Shown here: positions 56 to 11,552 of the stretch, piece by piece
How the letters are laid out: each line of letters begins with the position of its first letter
How positions within the stretch are numbered: position 1 is the stretch's first letter
Assembly: GCA_030019105.1 (NCBI GenBank)
Contig: JASEGY010000015.1
Span: forward strand, 1 to 15,851
From: a bacterium
GTDB lineage: Bacteria; UBA9089; JASEGY01
Direction: 5' to 3'
Length of the DNA: 15,851 nt
Translations under genes and position numbers: made by a program
Notes under the pieces: model-generated
What the model was told of the DNA's origin: nothing
Seen by the model: the letters and a program-made list of their open reading frames with translations, nothing else
Databases searched by the model: none

Positions 56-106
56 AGATTAATTTTAGACTTTATTGTCAAGGTCGTAACTCTTATTAAG
101 AGTTAA
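56..106 (+). pseudogene. 5'-truncated homologue of the small amphipathic peptide at 2911-2991
   Basis: Sixteen codons plus stop align without gaps to the last sixteen codons of the peptide at 2911-2991. This copy reads RLILDFIVKVVTLIKS and the other KLILDFVVRVLTVFIG. Eight residues are identical and most others are conservative (K/R, V/I, L/V). Base differences fall mainly at third and first codon positions, which indicates past selection as protein. The frame is open upstream into the MITE-like element ending at 55, with no ATG, GTG or TTG start inside the window. It is therefore either a broken copy or a fusion starting outside the window. Hairpins follow it at 123-147 and 155-181. Confidence 0.5.
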
Positions 107-122
107 AAAATACCTGTTGCTC

Positions 123-181
123 TAAGGTTGTGTCCACAGAAACCTTAAAACGTGGAGGTGTCACCCTATACTTGGCACCTT
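123..181 (+). other. Two hairpins downstream of the truncated peptide copy
   Basis: The first stem is TAAGGTT (123-129) with AACCTTA (141-147). The second is GAGGTG (155-160) with CACCTT (176-181), allowing a terminal G-T pair. The same two hairpins in the same order follow the intact peptide at 3010-3032 and 3043-3068. There the first stem reads AACGTT/AACGTT, so a G-C pair has become C-G with pairing preserved. That supports a conserved RNA structure. The remaining bases up to the tadA stop at 220 show nothing else I recognise. Confidence 0.5.
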
Positions 182-219
182 AAAACTATGTTGTCAGGGT
201 AGTGGGTGCTCCGCCTACT

Positions 220-1849: not shown

Positions 1850-2710
1850 CAGGGCCGAAAACCGGTGGGTATCCGGCAGGGCTTCGTTAAATCGGAAGGA
1901 GTAATCAAGCTGCCATGATTTATAATTTACCCCGATTCCAAAGGATAAAAGAATCTGTCGCTTCTTTTCTAAGATACTACTTCCACCGGCTCTGAAGCTA
2001 AATTCCACTTCTTTCACAGCCCTAAGTTGATATTCTCCTCCCAGGGCTATCCTCTTCAAGAGCTTATCCTGTTCTCCGCTTACCTGGGCGGCTAAAATCA
2101 GATCAGAGTAATGCCAAGCCAGGCCTAAATCGACCTGCCAGGGGAGATGCTCTTTCCTTGCAGTATCCCACTCCAACCGGCTTATTACGTCTCGTATCGT
2201 TACCCCGGCCGAAATGTCAGCCGCGGGCCTGAACAGGAGACCGATATCTGCGCCATAACCCTTTGCCTTGCCTTCTTCTATATCCGAGTCTATTTTAAAG
2301 TATTTAACATTTGTTCCCAGTGAAAGTAATGGATTGACTTGCCTGGCGTAAGAGAGAAGATAGGCCGTTTCTTGCCAGGAGGGGTTTTTTGAGTCATGGC
2401 TGGCCCTGGACAGGGCGGAAGCCCCTCTAACATCAGAATTGGTTGCGATAGAGAGAAATTCCTCGCTGATCAGGTTAAGGGAGAATAGATCAGTATGCAT
2501 AAAGGAAATTTCATGGGAGTCAAGCTGGGTTAAGCCGGCCGGATTATAGTAAGCTCCACTGGCATCGTTGGCCAGAGCAGCATAAGCCTCACCCATCCCG
2601 GCGGCCCGAACCCCCAGCCCTGAGAAATCAAAGGCTCCTCTAACCCCGGCGCTTGCCGGGCCGACAAGGCCTAAGCAAACAACAATTGTTATAGCTAAAG
2701 ATCTTTTCAT
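1835..2710 (-). CDS. PorV/PorQ-family outer-membrane beta-barrel protein
   Basis: The product is 291 residues with a signal peptide (MKRSLAITIVV...GPASAG) and then the family's N-terminal signature: GAFDFSGLGVRAAGMGEAYAAL followed at once by NDASGAYYNPAGL. The rest alternates short beta-strand-like segments and ends in the aromatic FSALIRFE, typical of outer-membrane barrels. In Bacteroidota PorV is the type IX secretion shuttle and PorQ a related barrel. In other phyla similar proteins occur without a full type IX system, so the exact role is open. ATG at 2710 has GAGGTGA 8 bases upstream; a GTG at 2722 is inside that site. The neighbour upstream is a large exported protein with a FlgD-like C-terminus, so a partner relation is plausible. 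Confidence 0.85.
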   Translation of the reverse strand: MKRSLAITIVVCLGLVGPASAGVRGAFDFSGLGVRAAGMGEAYAALANDASGAYYNPAGLTQLDSHEISFMHTDLFSLNLISEEFLSIATNSDVRGASALSRASHDSKNPSWQETAYLLSYARQVNPLLSLGTNVKYFKIDSDIEEGKAKGYGADIGLLFRPAADISAGVTIRDVISRLEWDTARKEHLPWQVDLGLAWHYSDLILAAQVSGEQDKLLKRIALGGEYQLRAVKEVEFSFRAGGSSILEKKRQILLSFGIGVNYKSWQLDYSFRFNEALPDTHRFSALIRFE

Positions 2711-2725
2711 TTTTGTAGTCACCTC
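2708..2725. repeat. 18-bp direct repeat, left copy (flanks the peptide island)
   Basis: CATTTTTGTAGTCACCTC here is repeated exactly at 3100-3117. Read on the minus strand it is the porV Shine-Dalgarno plus start codon. The two copies bracket the 374-base plus-strand peptide island. Confidence 0.75.
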
Positions 2726-2737
2726 GCTTTTTTACCC

Positions 2738-2766
2738 TTGACTTTTGGTGGATTTAATGTTATAAT
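2738..2766 (+). promoter_or_regulatory. Sigma70-type promoter for the plus-strand peptide island
   Basis: TTGACT at 2738-2743 and TATAAT at 2761-2766 are separated by 17 bases, a near-consensus housekeeping promoter pointing away from porV. Initiation is expected about 2772-2775, just upstream of the structured leader. No other plus-strand promoter this strong was noticed in the window. Confidence 0.75.
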
Positions 2767-2803
2767 AGATTTTGGTAGCGGGCCATGTACGCATTGGGCG
2801 CTC

Positions 2804-2833
2804 CTGGTTAGTATGGTGCAACATTCTAACCAG
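2804..2833 (+). promoter_or_regulatory. Leader hairpin 1
   Basis: CTGGTTAG (2804-2811) and CTAACCAG (2826-2833) pair perfectly. After one T-T mismatch the stem continues with ATG/CAT, closing a 6-base loop GTGCAA. It sits between the 5' pairing arm and the terminator-like hairpin. Confidence 0.65.
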
Positions 2834-2872
2834 AAAAAGGTAGGAGTGAAAAGCTTCTACCTTTTTCTTTTT
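2834..2872 (+). terminator. Terminator-like hairpin in the peptide leader (possible attenuator)
   Basis: AAAAAGGTAG (2834-2843) pairs perfectly with CTACCTTTTT (2857-2866). Three further inner pairs (GAG/CTT, one G-T) close a 7-base loop. A T-rich tract, TTTTTCTTTTT, covers the stem end and the following bases. In the plus direction this has the form of an intrinsic terminator. It would yield a ~95-base RNA from the promoter at 2738-2766, or attenuate read-through into the peptide ORF. It could also act for minus-strand transcripts. Confidence 0.6.
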
Positions 2873-2910
2873 ATGTGCCTGCCATTCAGAGGAAGAAAGG
2901 AGGCTTACCA

Positions 2911-2991
2911 ATGCGTACATTTGACAAACTCAAGGTGTTCAAACTTATCCTTGACTTTGTTGTCAGAGTTCTAACCGTGTTCATCGGTTAA
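2911..2991 (+). CDS. 26-residue amphipathic cationic peptide, fold-back-regulated, unknown family
   Basis: The peptide begins MRTFDKLKVFKL and ends RVLTVFIG. It has five basic and two acidic residues in an alternating hydrophobic pattern that would form an amphipathic or membrane-associated helix. AAAGGAGG lies 7 bases before the ATG, one of the best ribosome sites in the window. A near-consensus promoter lies upstream at 2738-2766. A diverged copy of its C-terminal sixteen codons at 56-106 shows conservative changes, which argues that it is translated. It runs opposite to every flanking gene. Size, charge and a start codon buried by complementary leader sequence resemble type I toxins, but I recognise no known family. 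A leader peptide or a secreted peptide are alternatives. Confidence 0.6.
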   Translation: MRTFDKLKVFKLILDFVVRVLTVFIG

Positions 2992-3009
2992 AGTCTGTTT
3001 TACCAGAAA

Positions 3010-3068
3010 AACGTTGAACCTGCTGTAACGTTAAATCTGTAGGGGTGCTAACTTGCACGTTCGCACCT
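3010..3068 (+). other. Two conserved hairpins downstream of the peptide ORF
   Basis: AACGTT (3010-3015) pairs with AACGTT (3027-3032). GGGTGC (3043-3048) pairs with GCACCT (3063-3068), with one G-T pair, and is followed by TAAAAATATTTTT, so the second may end the transcript. The same pair of hairpins follows the truncated copy at 123-181, with a compensatory change in the first stem. Confidence 0.5.
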
Positions 3069-3099
3069 AAAAATATTTTTATCTCTGGATGGCAGGCTC

Positions 3100-3117
3100 C
3101 ATTTTTGTAGTCACCTC
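3100..3117. repeat. 18-bp direct repeat, right copy
   Basis: This is identical to 2708-2725. On the minus strand it gives a good Shine-Dalgarno and ATG (3100-3102), but the reading frame stops after seven codons. It looks like a stranded copy of the porV translation start rather than a live gene. The stretch 3118-3280 beyond it shows no gene or recognisable element. Confidence 0.7.
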
Positions 3118-3300
3118 AATCTCGAATAGCTGGATTTTTGGTAGATATTGGAAAGATTTCTCTCGGTGCCTTAGCTTTTGGTCAGTTTCTTTCAAAAAAA
3201 CCGTTTGATTTATATTTCTTTTTAGGATGACTAATTATAGCCCTTCTATTCCTCATTATTGCCGTTGTCTTAGAGTCATCACCTCCAAAGGAGTAGTAAA

Positions 3301-3417
3301 ATGGCTGGTATATTATTTATAATTATGCTTGGGACCTTGATCTTTGGCCTGGTCGTTCTCTACCTGGATAGGCGAGGACGTAAAAGCCATTCTTCAAAAG
3401 AGAGACTCGAAACTTGA
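3301..3417 (+). CDS. Small single-pass membrane protein (38 residues), hypothetical
   Basis: The reading frame starts MAGILFIIMLGTLIFGLVVL, a clear transmembrane helix, followed by a basic segment (YLDRRGRKSH) and a hydrophilic tail. AAAGGAG at 3287-3293 sits 7 bases before the ATG. The last few codons (KERLET) run into the GAAACTC-word repeat at 3403-3436, so the original C-terminus may have been replaced. The shape, one helix then a positively charged cytoplasmic tail, is common among small accessory subunits of membrane complexes and among small toxins. I do not recognise the family. I saw no convincing promoter just upstream. It is opposite in strand to the Tad genes. Confidence 0.45.
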   Translation: MAGILFIIMLGTLIFGLVVLYLDRRGRKSHSSKERLET

Positions 3418-3436
3418 AACCCGAAACTCGAAACTA
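3403..3436. repeat. GAAACTC/GAAACTT word array
   Basis: Words of the form GACTCGAAACTTGAAAC repeat about four times. The same word array occurs at about 10137-10160 and 11553-11580. Here it separates the stop of the 940-residue protein (3442) from the end of the small plus-strand frame. Confidence 0.7.
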
Positions 3437-3441
3437 AAATG

Positions 3442-6264
3442 TTATCTCACCACCGCCACCAACCGATGCACCGTGGTCTCCTCTCCTTGTTCAGAAACCA
3501 TTATCCTCAGAATATAAAGCCCGTTGTTTACTATGTGGCCATCCTCATCTCGACCATCCCAACCAAAAGTCTTACCGCCCTCCATTCGGCGGACTTGATC
3601 CCCTGATAGTCCATAAACCCGGATACTGGAGTAATCGGCTGCCTCAATACCGGTGATAGTTACCTCCTCTCCGAGTCCCGGATTAAATGATTCTGCCGAG
3701 AGGGTGATAACATCTTCCAAGCTGGCTTCAAGGGATACGGGATAGGCTAAGGTATAAGCTGAGGCCAGCTTGTTTATTCGGAGAGAAAGGGCTTCCGTGT
3801 CTAATTCAAGAATAGCTTCCGGCAGGGACTGCCATACGCTTCCCAAATAACCATAAATAACCAAATCTTCCTTGCTCACGCCTAAAGGAAAATCACTTCC
3901 CTGATAGGGGAGAATAAGCTTGATGGGTTGGGTAAATTCCCAGCCTTCTATATTCCGGGATGAATCCTGCTTATCGTAAAATCTGATCACTTTGCCTAAA
4001 GACTTAAATTCTGCGGGCAGGGCCGGAACAGACAATGCCTCGGTGATCAATAGATTACTAAACTGATATGATGGTTCATGAGTAAGATTTGTCCCCGGAT
4101 AGATAATGCCGTATAATTGTCCTCCATAAGTGATCAGCACGTTATCTAAGAGATCGACCTTGAAATCAAAGGTGTAAACTGCGGCGGCTCCACCGGTATC
4201 TTTGGCGTAAACAACAATGGTATATGTTCCGGATGAGGTAATATTACTGGTTGGTTGAAAGATAAGCTCTACATTTTTGGAGTCTCGTTTCAGAATTCCA
4301 CTTACTTTATTCCCCTCTTTATCTCGCAGGTAGAGATCAGATCCATCCAGATCAACCCCTGAACCGGTTGGGCCATCATTCAGTTGAACCGACACGTCAG
4401 TTATTGGTTTAGTCAGAGGCGGGTCATTTAGTTCAAAAGGCTGTTGGTTGAGATAGACAAGACTCACCTTAGGCGGGCTTCGATCCTCAATGGTGAAAGC
4501 ATATTCGGTTTCTTGTTTGTTTCCCAGCTTATCCAGGGCAATAATGCGGACAGTGTACATCCCGGGCAATCTCAGGTAACCGCCTGGTATCTCAAATCCT
4601 TCCAATTTTAAGATACTGTCGCCATAAGGAATCAACCTGCCAGGGATGCTCACTCCCAAAGGATCGAGAAGCTTGATGGAGGAGGCAATAAAATCCACCC
4701 CGCTTCCCTCATCTTCTAACCCAATCGAGATTTCAATCACTTGTTCAATAGTGGGGTCGATGGTTTCATCTTTGTTTGGCTTAAAAGAAGAGATGACCGG
4801 AGGCTGATTGTCCGTGCCCGGCCCTGTAGTTCTTTTTACCGTCATTGATTTGGTTACCGGCTCAGCCAAAAGACCATAGCCAATCTCTCTGGCAGGTTCA
4901 ATATGCCATTTCTCTCCGGTAACAACATCAGCTTCTCTGAAAAAGTCAACAAACTCAAACTCGCGGTCGAGAAGTTGAGACTGAAGGGTAATAGAATATG
5001 TCCCATCCTCGAAAGCTCCACATGGTTTCCAAAGAACACCGAAATTGGCGTGATAATAAGGATGTCCACGTTCATCAGTATATGGACCGTTGAGGGGGAC
5101 AAGGGTATCCCAGTCATTAGTTTTATCCTCATCGGGCTTGTCTGGCACATAGGGATCCCCTATTTGAAAACCATCTGGTGTCAGGTAGACACCATTTTCG
5201 TCCCGTGGCCAGTAAATCCGGTCCCACCCCACCCACCCCCGAACGATCTCATCACTATCCCAACCTTCGTACAGGTCGTGCTGAAGGTAAACGCTCTGAT
5301 ATCCTTCTCTATGAACCTCAAATCCAACCAGTGCATAGGGCCTGGGACCAGTTGAACCAGCGTTATCAAGCCCTAAAAAAGGATTATTTGGGAAATCTAA
5401 CACCCTGAGCTGATCCGGATCAGCCCAGAGATAGAGATCAAAGCTGATATCTGTCCAATCAGCCACCTCATCCCCCTCCGGAGAGTAGGGATTTGGAGAA
5501 ATGAGGCTATTGGTGATCTCCAGTTTAACTGTAGAGAGAACGATATTACCTACTGCTGCCGGCTCACTCTTATTACCATATTGATTAACGGCCGTGATAA
5601 CATAGGTATATTGATTATCAGGGTAAGGACTAAGGTTATCGTCCAGTCCATCCCAGGTGGCCTGATTGGCCCCGGCTTTGCCCGATGCAGAACCAATGGT
5701 TTCTATTGCTGAGGTGCCAGGATAGGCACGATAATCAAGATAAGATTCGTATATCCTGATGGTGACCTGACAGCTTTCACTCAAGGTGTAATTAATCTTT
5801 GCCCCGGCTGAACCCTGGGGCGGGACATAGCAGGGATCAAAAGGGGTGGGAAAGACAGAGTCGTTAGATATAATTGGCCTGGAGGCATAAATGGTTACTT
5901 TCTCTTCGGCCTGTTTGGTTACCTTCTGGTCAGGTGTTTCCAGGTAGAAAAAGACAGGCCCGTTCTTAATGGAGTCGCCCTCGCTGATGGCATAATCCCT
6001 TCCGTAAATTTGATCATTGGCCGTTGTGTCTCCATTTGAACCATCGTCGTAGAGCTGTATTCCCTCGTGAATGTGGGATATCCCAACGGTAAGGAGACCT
6101 GCTTCTTCCACCCAGGCCGTGAAGTGGATAATATCGCCAATGTTTAGCGGCTCGGCAGCCGTATCCCAACTGACTTCAACTTTGGTAATCCGGGCCAGAG
6201 AAATGGCCGGAAAAAGCAGTAAAGCTAAAAAAACCACCGTTATCCTTAGCTTCCATAGTCTCAT
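3442..6264 (-). CDS. Large exported protein with FlgD-like and Ig-like domains
   Basis: The product is 940 residues. A signal peptide (MRLWKLRITVVFLALLLFP...SLA) is followed by a beta-rich domain. A FlgD-like segment at about 135-225 contains the hallmark WDGLDDN...PDNQYTYVI. A second segment starting near 250 opens with NPYSPEGDEVADWTDISF, close to the SPNGDGVND motif of gliding/T9SS-type proteins. Two Ig-like repeats sit at about 490-700 (PPVISSFKP; SPPKVSLVYL). The C-terminal 75 residues again have the FlgD/T9SS sorting-domain shape (FGWDGRDEDGHIVNNGLYILRI). GGAGGT lies 8 bases before the ATG. The neighbours are the PorV-like barrel (1835-2710) and tadV. It is probably a cell-surface or adhesive protein linked to the pilus locus; its partner and anchoring route are inferred. 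Confidence 0.8.
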   Translation of the reverse strand: MRLWKLRITVVFLALLLFPAISLARITKVEVSWDTAAEPLNIGDIIHFTAWVEEAGLLTVGISHIHEGIQLYDDGSNGDTTANDQIYGRDYAISEGDSIKNGPVFFYLETPDQKVTKQAEEKVTIYASRPIISNDSVFPTPFDPCYVPPQGSAGAKINYTLSESCQVTIRIYESYLDYRAYPGTSAIETIGSASGKAGANQATWDGLDDNLSPYPDNQYTYVITAVNQYGNKSEPAAVGNIVLSTVKLEITNSLISPNPYSPEGDEVADWTDISFDLYLWADPDQLRVLDFPNNPFLGLDNAGSTGPRPYALVGFEVHREGYQSVYLQHDLYEGWDSDEIVRGWVGWDRIYWPRDENGVYLTPDGFQIGDPYVPDKPDEDKTNDWDTLVPLNGPYTDERGHPYYHANFGVLWKPCGAFEDGTYSITLQSQLLDREFEFVDFFREADVVTGEKWHIEPAREIGYGLLAEPVTKSMTVKRTTGPGTDNQPPVISSFKPNKDETIDPTIEQVIEISIGLEDEGSGVDFIASSIKLLDPLGVSIPGRLIPYGDSILKLEGFEIPGGYLRLPGMYTVRIIALDKLGNKQETEYAFTIEDRSPPKVSLVYLNQQPFELNDPPLTKPITDVSVQLNDGPTGSGVDLDGSDLYLRDKEGNKVSGILKRDSKNVELIFQPTSNITSSGTYTIVVYAKDTGGAAAVYTFDFKVDLLDNVLITYGGQLYGIIYPGTNLTHEPSYQFSNLLITEALSVPALPAEFKSLGKVIRFYDKQDSSRNIEGWEFTQPIKLILPYQGSDFPLGVSKEDLVIYGYLGSVWQSLPEAILELDTEALSLRINKLASAYTLAYPVSLEASLEDVITLSAESFNPGLGEEVTITGIEAADYSSIRVYGLSGDQVRRMEGGKTFGWDGRDEDGHIVNNGLYILRIMVSEQGEETTVHRLVAVVR

Positions 6265-10962: not shown

Positions 10963-11029
10963 TTGGTCTCCTTGCGGCTTGAAACATTCTGTGGCAAATA
11001 TACTGCACACCGTCATAAACTGAGTTATT

Positions 11030-11187
11030 GGGACGGTTCAAAAATCGTCCATTTTCTTGTGAAACCTTGCGTTCTTTCTGGAGTTTAGGCTTTAGCCTTT
11101 CATAACTAATGAAATCCTAAAGGATTAACTCCGGAAAGTTAATGATAATTTTTAGCCGCAAGCTTTCACAGTAAGGTGAACCATCCC
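11030..11187. mobile_element. MITE-like element, GGGACGGTTCA family, copy 1
   Basis: Terminal repeats are GGGACGGTTCA (11030-11040) and TGAACCATCCC (11177-11187). They are flanked by a perfect 8-bp direct duplication, GAGTTATT (11022-11029 and 11188-11195). Inner arms TGTGAAACCTTGCG and CGCAAGCTTTCACA also face each other. The exact centre is occupied by the 53-bp palindrome at 11080-11132, which also occurs in TATAG-family elements. There is no coding capacity. Confidence 0.82.
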
Positions 11188-11247
11188 GAGTTATTTAAAG
11201 CTCTGAAACCGTAGTGTAAATAGGGAGTCGAGTTCTTTTTTAATGGC

Positions 11248-11345
11248 ATTGAATATCGAATATCGAATAAAGAATTTCGAATTATGAAGTCTTGTTCTTC
11301 TTTTTCCTTCGACATTCATTATTCCTTGTTCAATATTCGATATTT
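11248..11345. repeat. ATCGAAT word array with inverted halves
   Basis: GAATATCGAATATCGAATAAAG and similar words on the left face CATTCATTATTCC and AATATTCGATATT on the right. It is AT-rich and noncoding, and lies between the two GGGACGGTTCA elements. The right end provides the target sequence duplicated by copy 2. Confidence 0.7.
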
Positions 11346-11346
11346 T

Positions 11347-11501
11347 GGGACGGTTCACCTTAGTGTGAAGCTTGCGGGTATGTGGATAACTGTTTGTAGT
11401 AGCAAAGCTTGCTTTGCTTGAGTAGGATTAGCAGAGCAAGCTCTGCGACTACAAGTTGCCCGGAAGAAATCACAGGAAAAACGATGAAAATGAACCGTCC
11501 C
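11347..11501. mobile_element. MITE-like element, GGGACGGTTCA family, copy 2
   Basis: Perfect terminal repeats GGGACGGTTCA (11347-11357) and TGAACCGTCCC (11491-11501) are flanked by a perfect 8-bp duplication, GATATTTT (11339-11346 and 11502-11509). The left inner sequence CACCTTAGTGTGAAGCTTGCGG matches the inner right arm of copy 1. The exact centre is the 59-bp three-way-junction palindrome at 11395-11453. The core therefore differs from copy 1 although the frame is the same. With copy 1 and the array between, it fills the unusually long cpaB to cpaC-like spacer. Confidence 0.85.
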
Positions 11502-11552
11502 GATATTTTACACATTATTAAAGCTCAATTTGTAACAGTGTCGAGTATACCT

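Follow-up and report, generated by a model that had tools for sequence, protein, structure and literature searches.

A plus-strand island whose leader complements its own start codon: a candidate fold-back-inhibited small-peptide gene family in one bacterial genome

What does a short plus-strand island encode in a stretch whose genes run on the opposite strand? The window, by which we mean the whole 15,851-nucleotide stretch of DNA analysed, is one contig (C120) of a 4.3-Mb genome of an uncultured bacterium, assembled in 1053 contigs and 95.3% complete. Its genes lie on the minus strand, and several carry tad-pilus-type domains (T2SSE, prepilin peptidase, secretin, RcpC/CpaB). An outer-membrane-protein-like gene that starts at ~2710 borders the island (copy A; Table 1) on one side, and on the other lies a FlgD-Ig-domain gene, which stops at 3442. 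The first-pass annotation had described it as a compact unit set against its flanking genes, with a near-consensus promoter (TTGACT, 17 bases, TATAAT), a ~135-base leader with two strong hairpins and a strong Shine-Dalgarno, and all of these parts are recovered here: the neighbours are on the minus strand, the promoter has TG before its -10 in addition, and the leader, counted from the expected transcript start, measures ~138 nt and holds both hairpins (HP1 and HP2). The island is therefore real as described, and three features absent from that annotation are added below: a complement of the start codon in the leader (P1), a pairing between two distant arms (PL) and a family of six copies.

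The island is flanked by an 18-bp direct repeat. A genome of the same genus (G001) has the minus-strand gene's copy of this repeat, followed by the same GCTTTTTT, an arrangement that target-site duplication in its simple form would not entirely explain. Downstream, between the island and the convergent gene (3118-3420, plus strand), remnants of small membrane-protein-like frames can be seen by eye, one broken and one of ~38 codons.

Table 1 Features of the island (copy A) and of its relatives; positions without a contig name are those of the window.
Feature	Position	Strand	Remarks
Direct repeat, left copy, 18 bp	2708..2725		RBS and start of neighbouring minus-strand gene
Promoter TTGACT-17-TATAAT, extended -10 (TGT)	2738..2766	+	11/12 to consensus, promoter scan
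HP0, 5' hairpin GGTAGCG...CGCTCC	2774..2804	+	Loop with the anti-start sequence; 3' side with the anti-Shine-Dalgarno CTCC
P1 anti-start arm ATGTACGCATTGG	2785..2797	+	13/13 complementary to 2908-2920
HP1 hairpin	2804..2833	+	Folding and covariation over six copies
HP2 hairpin and T-run, intrinsic-terminator-like	2832..2873	+	Terminator scan; hairpin proper 2832-2868
PL 5' arm	2877..2898	+	Unbroken pairing 2877-2892; just upstream of Shine-Dalgarno
Shine-Dalgarno AAAGGAGG	2896..2903	+	Leader CTCC pairs with it in cognate duplex
P1 start-codon arm CCAATGCGTACAT	2908..2920	+	Perfect complement of 2785-2797
26-codon ORF MRTFDKLKVFKLILDFVVRVLTVFIG	2911..2991	+	Paralogues in same genome
HP3, 3' hairpin GTAGGGGTG...CACCT	3039..3069	+	Conserved in A-D
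PL 3' arm	3076..3097	+	Matching ends in B, C, D, H; element end ~3100
Direct repeat, right copy, 18 bp	3100..3117		Perfect match to 2708..2725; the pair flanks the island
Copy A	this window	+	ORF intact, 26 codons
Copy B	C453:11660-11293		ORF intact
Copy C	C453:7435-7079		ORF intact
Copy D	C319:~4049-3679		ORF intact
Copy E	C410 from 3059		Frame ends after nine codons at another repeat, near contig end
Copy F, remnant	C453:5934 to ~5825		Promoter and HP2 only; without HP0, HP1
Copy G	C953 from ~2350		ORF 18 codons; palindromic repeat between HP2 and Shine-Dalgarno
Copy H, 3' half	~56..212	+	End of peptide frame, HP3-like hairpin, PL 3' arm

The peptide of copy A matches weak relatives in the same genome, all with the same layout, and further copies were found by DNA similarity, by a covariance model covering HP1, HP2 and the PL 5' arm (R1) and by a peptide profile. 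Six copies in the genome (A, B, C, D, E and G) share an extended -10 promoter, HP0, HP1, the terminator-like HP2, a Shine-Dalgarno and a short ORF, and the recurrence of this layout in five further promoter-leader copies argues that the island is not a product of chance. A promoter like that of copy A is found by scan in B, C, E and G, and that of remnant F was read by eye; for copy D the scan found no consensus promoter. Copy G was detected at E 0.07 by R1, which had been built without it. A second model, covering HP0, HP1 and HP2 (R2), matches A-E and G at E 2e-8 to 2e-18, values that hold by construction since these copies built the model; remnant F reaches E = 0.36. The half copy H, which a different repeat interrupts close to where the contig begins, is probably the other half of copy E. 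A palindromic repeat of ~52 nt (GGAGTTTAGGCTTTAGCCTTTCAT...ATGAAATCCTAAAGGATTAACTCC), seen by eye at 1-15 and 11079-11132 of the window, recurs intergenically and beside or inside family copies, namely near B and F (L047) and inside G (L075).

In all six copies the leader complements its own start-codon region over 7-14 nt, start-codon bases included, and the paired letters differ among the copies. With G-U pairs allowed, the longest unbroken pairing is 13, 14 and 12 nt in A, B and C, respectively, the complement in A being perfect; under strict pairing it is 12 nt in both E and G, and in D it is short, with 7 pairs and 3 more across an internal loop. Both sides have changed in 15 of the 22 pairs, a count reached by none of 500 shuffles, and in a fixed 22-column register 69.7% of 132 cells are paired versus 36.5-40.8% in slid controls, although the alignments behind this and the other pair counts were placed in register manually and padded with N, and for P1 the register was chosen copy by copy, which biases its count towards pairing. 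When the duplex energies of all six leaders with all six start regions are tabulated (6 x 6), the cognate duplexes sum to -159.6 kcal/mol, which is the best of the 720 assignments and is reached by no other. Five of the six leaders prefer their own start region; the exception is the leader of D (-20.5 with the start of A, -21.7 with that of G and only -17.8 with its own). The 3' side of HP0 carries CTCC in every copy. This motif pairs with the GGAG of the Shine-Dalgarno in the cognate duplexes of A, B, C, E and G, the leader of D pairing with a neighbouring stretch; within the HP0 stem it faces GGAG in B, C, E and G, and CTCC thus has two possible partners.

As a control, 143 Shine-Dalgarno-preceded ATGs in four sequences were searched, and five have a leader complement of at least 10 nt: those of copies A, B and C, the mirror image of A and one ATG in a nest of palindromic repeats. 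The last, an 11-nt complement at 11484 of the window, is part of the nest and not a family copy. The nest itself (11026-11506) lies in a gap between pilus genes and consists of repeats with TTGGGACGGTTCA ends, two direct and one inverted.

The leader is also strongly structured. Positions 2770-3000 of copy A fold with z = -7.0 (0 of 200 shuffles as good) and the reverse strand of the region with z -7.2 (0 of 100), so fold energy alone does not pick the strand. Over HP0, HP1 and HP2 in the six copies, 95% of cells are paired and 13 of 31 pairs have changed on both sides, with none of 500 shuffles matching either value. Such changes affect 6 of 10 pairs in HP1 and 6 of 13 in HP2, and HP0 is the weakest of the three helices (81.8% of cells paired).

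A longer-range pairing, PL, joins the region just upstream of the Shine-Dalgarno to the end of the element. In copy A a repeat search pairs 2877-2898 with 3076-3097 (82% paired over 22 nt), and 9 of 14 columns have changed on both sides over A-D, a count without shuffle control. For the full-length RNA of A-D, the lowest-energy nested fold given by RNAfold contains PL in all four copies, ahead of the P1 fold by 1.6, 6.1, 5.1 and 11.0 kcal/mol, respectively. Removal of the PL 3' arm makes the P1 fold the most stable one for A, B and C and leaves it 1.9 kcal/mol short of the minimum for D. Read literally, these nested folds would describe a nascent message that is closed and a finished one that can open. 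However, RNAfold draws nested folds only and cannot represent crossing helices, and the unbroken stretches of P1 and PL share no bases. Mutual exclusion of the two pairings was therefore rejected as a conclusion, and because a single pseudoknot could accommodate both, no direction is claimed for a switch. A third pairing, P0, between the 5' end and the region after the stop codon, is good only in B and C; the transcript of copy A is expected to start at or after the 5' arm of P0, and we keep this pairing as no more than a lead.

The ORF is intact in four of the six copies (26, 26, 26 and 25 codons in A-D) and looks coding. From codon 6 on, the differences summed over the six pairs of these copies fall as 52/21/63 at codon positions 1/2/3, and pN/pS ranges from 0.37 to 0.64. 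The first-pass annotation had proposed homologues with intact frames and codon-biased substitution as tests of its reading, and both are found, in copies B, C and D and in this codon-like pattern. Seven peptide residues are invariant in A-D (M1, K8, V9, L14, D15, F16 and G26), the net charge is +3, +3, +3 and +6, and the mean hydrophobicity is 0.01-0.26. The length of 26 codons and the cationic character given to the peptide of copy A are thus retained, but not its amphipathicity: 27, 15, 11 and 8% of shuffles reach the helical hydrophobic moment of A, B, C and D, respectively, and since shuffles do so often, none of the four peptides stands out as amphipathic. The earlier statement that no known family is recognisable agrees with the database searches. 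The peptide has no credible match in Pfam, where two sub-threshold matches are to unrelated eukaryotic families, and none in PADLOC or NCBIfam; neither the island nor its paralogues match Rfam, and the window has no Rfam match at the gathering threshold. At E <= 5, Rfam on the four paralogue loci returns a sub-threshold mir-627 and, elsewhere in these loci, a selenocysteine tRNA match (L062:282-364, i.e., G000:C410:1781-1863) of 46.5 bits against a cut-off of 47, which suggests that this genome may use selenocysteine.

Beyond this genome, 385 others yielded no further family copy with an ORF. With strict filters, R1 at E <= 0.01 matches 1 of 386 genomes, this one, and the peptide profile matches two at E <= 0.001; the second of these, in G020 (E 2.5e-5), was set aside, as it lies in a different frame inside a 93-codon ORF. 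At E <= 1, matches occur in 71 of 98 genomes, nearly all by short stretches; with the limit at E <= 0.001 there remain the window itself, G001 (through the start of the neighbouring gene) and G085 (through a promoter stretch). Close relatives in the comparison set are a second genome of the genus and ~17 from elsewhere in the phylum, and the pilus-cluster gaps of G001 that match those of the window (~170 and ~290 nt) contain no island. Some 40 weak R1 or R2 matches occur in the phylum beyond the six copies. In the 18 examined, no ATG behind a Shine-Dalgarno has, within 300 nt, a leader complement longer than 8 nt, and a promoter of at least 9/12 lies just upstream of a single one, G001:C153, which, as the sole promoter-preceded locus, is taken as a possible leader-only relative. 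Here, a promoter like that of copy A (11/12 by scan) stands 11 nt upstream of the R2 match (E = 0.0054), compared with 15 nt in B and 13 nt in E, and is followed by three hairpins like HP0-HP1-HP2, with no ORF seen. By eye, the candidates at C631, C1030 and G001:C14 look like plain terminators. Plasmids and phages gave no DNA-similarity match at E <= 1e-5. A pattern for the HP2/PL core gave no match in viral contigs and one in genome contigs, in a Bacteroidetes sequence that by eye has no promoter-leader layout and is taken as chance, and the peptide profile gave 28 pattern matches in viral contigs, none of them confirmed.

The covarying complement, the hairpins and the codon-position pattern together make the leader appear selected to hide its own ribosome-binding site. 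We favour, with somewhat better than even confidence, the reading of the island as a toxin-type gene for a membrane peptide, inhibited by the fold-back of its message, which would work like that of a type I toxin. The DNA itself shows the layout, the covarying complementarity, the coding-type substitution and the terminator-like HP2. In the proposed mechanism, each element would give rise to a message for a cationic membrane-type peptide of ~26 residues that is silenced in cis, the loop of HP0 pairing with the start-codon region ~120 nt downstream and the base of this hairpin pairing with the Shine-Dalgarno. As HP2 lies between the promoter and the ORF, many transcripts, probably most, should stop there and end as a leader of ~100 nt. 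A message that reads through could fold via P1 in the cell, with start codon and Shine-Dalgarno masked, and the peptide would be made only once this fold opens, for which processing at either end of the message (in the leader or at the 3' end) or a switch linked to PL would be plausible triggers. Once unmasked, the peptide would be expected to harm its own cell.

Type I systems typically combine a toxic hydrophobic or helical peptide of under 60 amino acids with a separate antisense RNA from its own opposite-strand promoter. We do not file the island as one, because no antisense promoter stood out in A-D, the family libraries searched contain neither the peptide nor the RNA, and the peptide is a putative toxin. 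Thus, the label offered by the first-pass annotation, a type I toxin or other fold-back-regulated small-peptide gene, is kept in its second half, through the compensatory complement of six copies and the coding-like ORF, and not in its first. Its remark that no antisense promoter is visible also stands: in A-D none stood out, the best scores being reached by 38-100% of shuffles at positions that are not conserved, in a consensus scan that a weak promoter or one for another sigma factor could escape.

With HP2 placed ahead of the ORF, a leader that ends there could serve as an RNA antitoxin, and a same-strand type I system of this kind is a possibility we take seriously while considering it rather doubtful. 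The leader of ~100 nt would then accumulate, and the loop of HP0 would act in trans on processed, leaderless messages, mainly those of its own copy. The scan does call HP2 an intrinsic terminator on the sense strand of each of the copies A-D, always between promoter and ORF; the pairing is cognate-best in all leaders but that of D; remnant F keeps just the promoter and HP2; and the leader-like unit of G001:C153, in the genome of the same genus, combines a promoter with the lack of an ORF. However, masking in cis fully explains the same complement, F is without HP0 and HP1, the match in G001 is weak and has no adjacent ORF to act on, and the scan calls no terminator at HP2 of copy G. In the type I systems known to us, the RNA antitoxin is encoded on the opposite strand or by a separate gene, and the literature consulted describes no antitoxin leader on the toxin's own strand, although this does not prove that none exists. 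In its fullest form, which we offer tentatively, this would be a type I system with one promoter on one strand: an attenuator would split transcription into an antitoxin leader and a read-through toxin message that carries the antitoxin in cis, and the pairing would have diversified among the paralogues such that each mostly silences itself.

The peptide may also be no toxin at all. An ordinary combination of ribosome-binding-site sequestration and attenuation could regulate a signal, membrane-stress or leader peptide, and coding selection and structure do not reveal function; the moments of the four intact peptides, within reach of 8-27% of shuffles, and an ORF that is broken or shortened in two of the six copies agree with such a role. 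We consider it unlikely, as a double lock of terminator and masked start would seem costly for a harmless peptide, and the size, charge and hydrophobic helix resemble those of known type I toxins as described in the consulted part of a published account (PMC8309996).

The orientation of the copies bears on the source of a possible antisense RNA. In 8 of 8 loci (A, B, C, D, E/H, F, G and G001:C153) the element runs opposite to its known flanking gene or genes, of which copy D has one, and its 3' end falls just past the stop codon of the convergent neighbour, by 6, 7, 19 and 7 nt in copies B, C, D and H, respectively. An antisense RNA could therefore come from the host operon, the convergent neighbour reading through and silence of the operon releasing the peptide. 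As an account of the family this is nonetheless improbable: the orientation may reflect tolerance of insertion, the 3' end of copy A is 341 nt from the convergent stop, and in copy D a terminator-like match within HP2 reads antisense to the element. The position of four of the five complete 3' ends, 6-19 nt past a convergent stop, may possibly reflect an insertion preference. Finally, that the family is a MITE- or REP-like palindromic repeat, dispersed in the genome, with fortuitous inverted arms and ORF is very improbable, for although the copies begin and end at similar points between genes, GTAG stands before HP3 in A-C, one Y1_Tnp match occurs in the genome and the window has other palindromic repeats, the complement includes start-codon bases in every copy and covaries with the start region, promoter-like, terminator-like and Shine-Dalgarno sites recur, and codon position 2 has the fewest differences.

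Known systems share parts of the fold-back-inhibited gene proposed here. In hok/sok, a translation-inert message with 5'-3' pairing encodes a small membrane toxin, and hok is translationally coupled to an overlapping mok frame. The island would resemble it in combining predicted 5'-3' pairing of the message with a predicted small membrane peptide, but neither it nor its paralogues match Rfam, and no Sok-like antisense promoter stood out. In the consulted sections of the report on aapA/IsoA of Helicobacter pylori, a multi-copy chromosomal family of small toxic peptides (AapA3 has 30 amino acids) is described whose primary transcript masks the Shine-Dalgarno, with a 5'-3' long-distance interaction, module-specific pairing and a fold that processing opens (PMC6733600). 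The multi-copy small-peptide family, the long-range pairing and its copy specificity have counterparts here in sequence, and a masked Shine-Dalgarno is predicted. By contrast, IsoA is described there as a separate antisense RNA from the opposite strand, whereas here the complement lies in the same-strand leader before a terminator-like hairpin, and the consensus scan found no conserved antisense promoter in A-D for an IsoA-like RNA over the ORF. For timP/TimR of Salmonella, the consulted parts of two reports describe a ribosome-binding site that is sequestered co-transcriptionally before a pseudoknotted active conformation forms (PMC11228461, PMC11295053); P1 and PL of the island would cross as well, but TimR is presented as a separate, divergently transcribed sRNA, and none is seen here. 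ChiZ and IspZ of E. coli, terminated 5' UTR-derived sRNAs, are examples of leader RNAs with functions of their own; as far as the consulted account goes, they sponge other sRNAs and, unlike the leader described here, are not antisense to their own downstream ORF (PMC7815308).

In this family the complement sits on the same transcript as the start codon, ahead of a terminator-like hairpin, and its letters differ between paralogues while the pairing is kept. If read correctly, toxin and antitoxin would here do without a second promoter, and the paralogues would be a ready set on which to follow how pairing specificity diversifies. The search rule gained, a leader loop complementary to the downstream start codon, requires no homology to known toxins.
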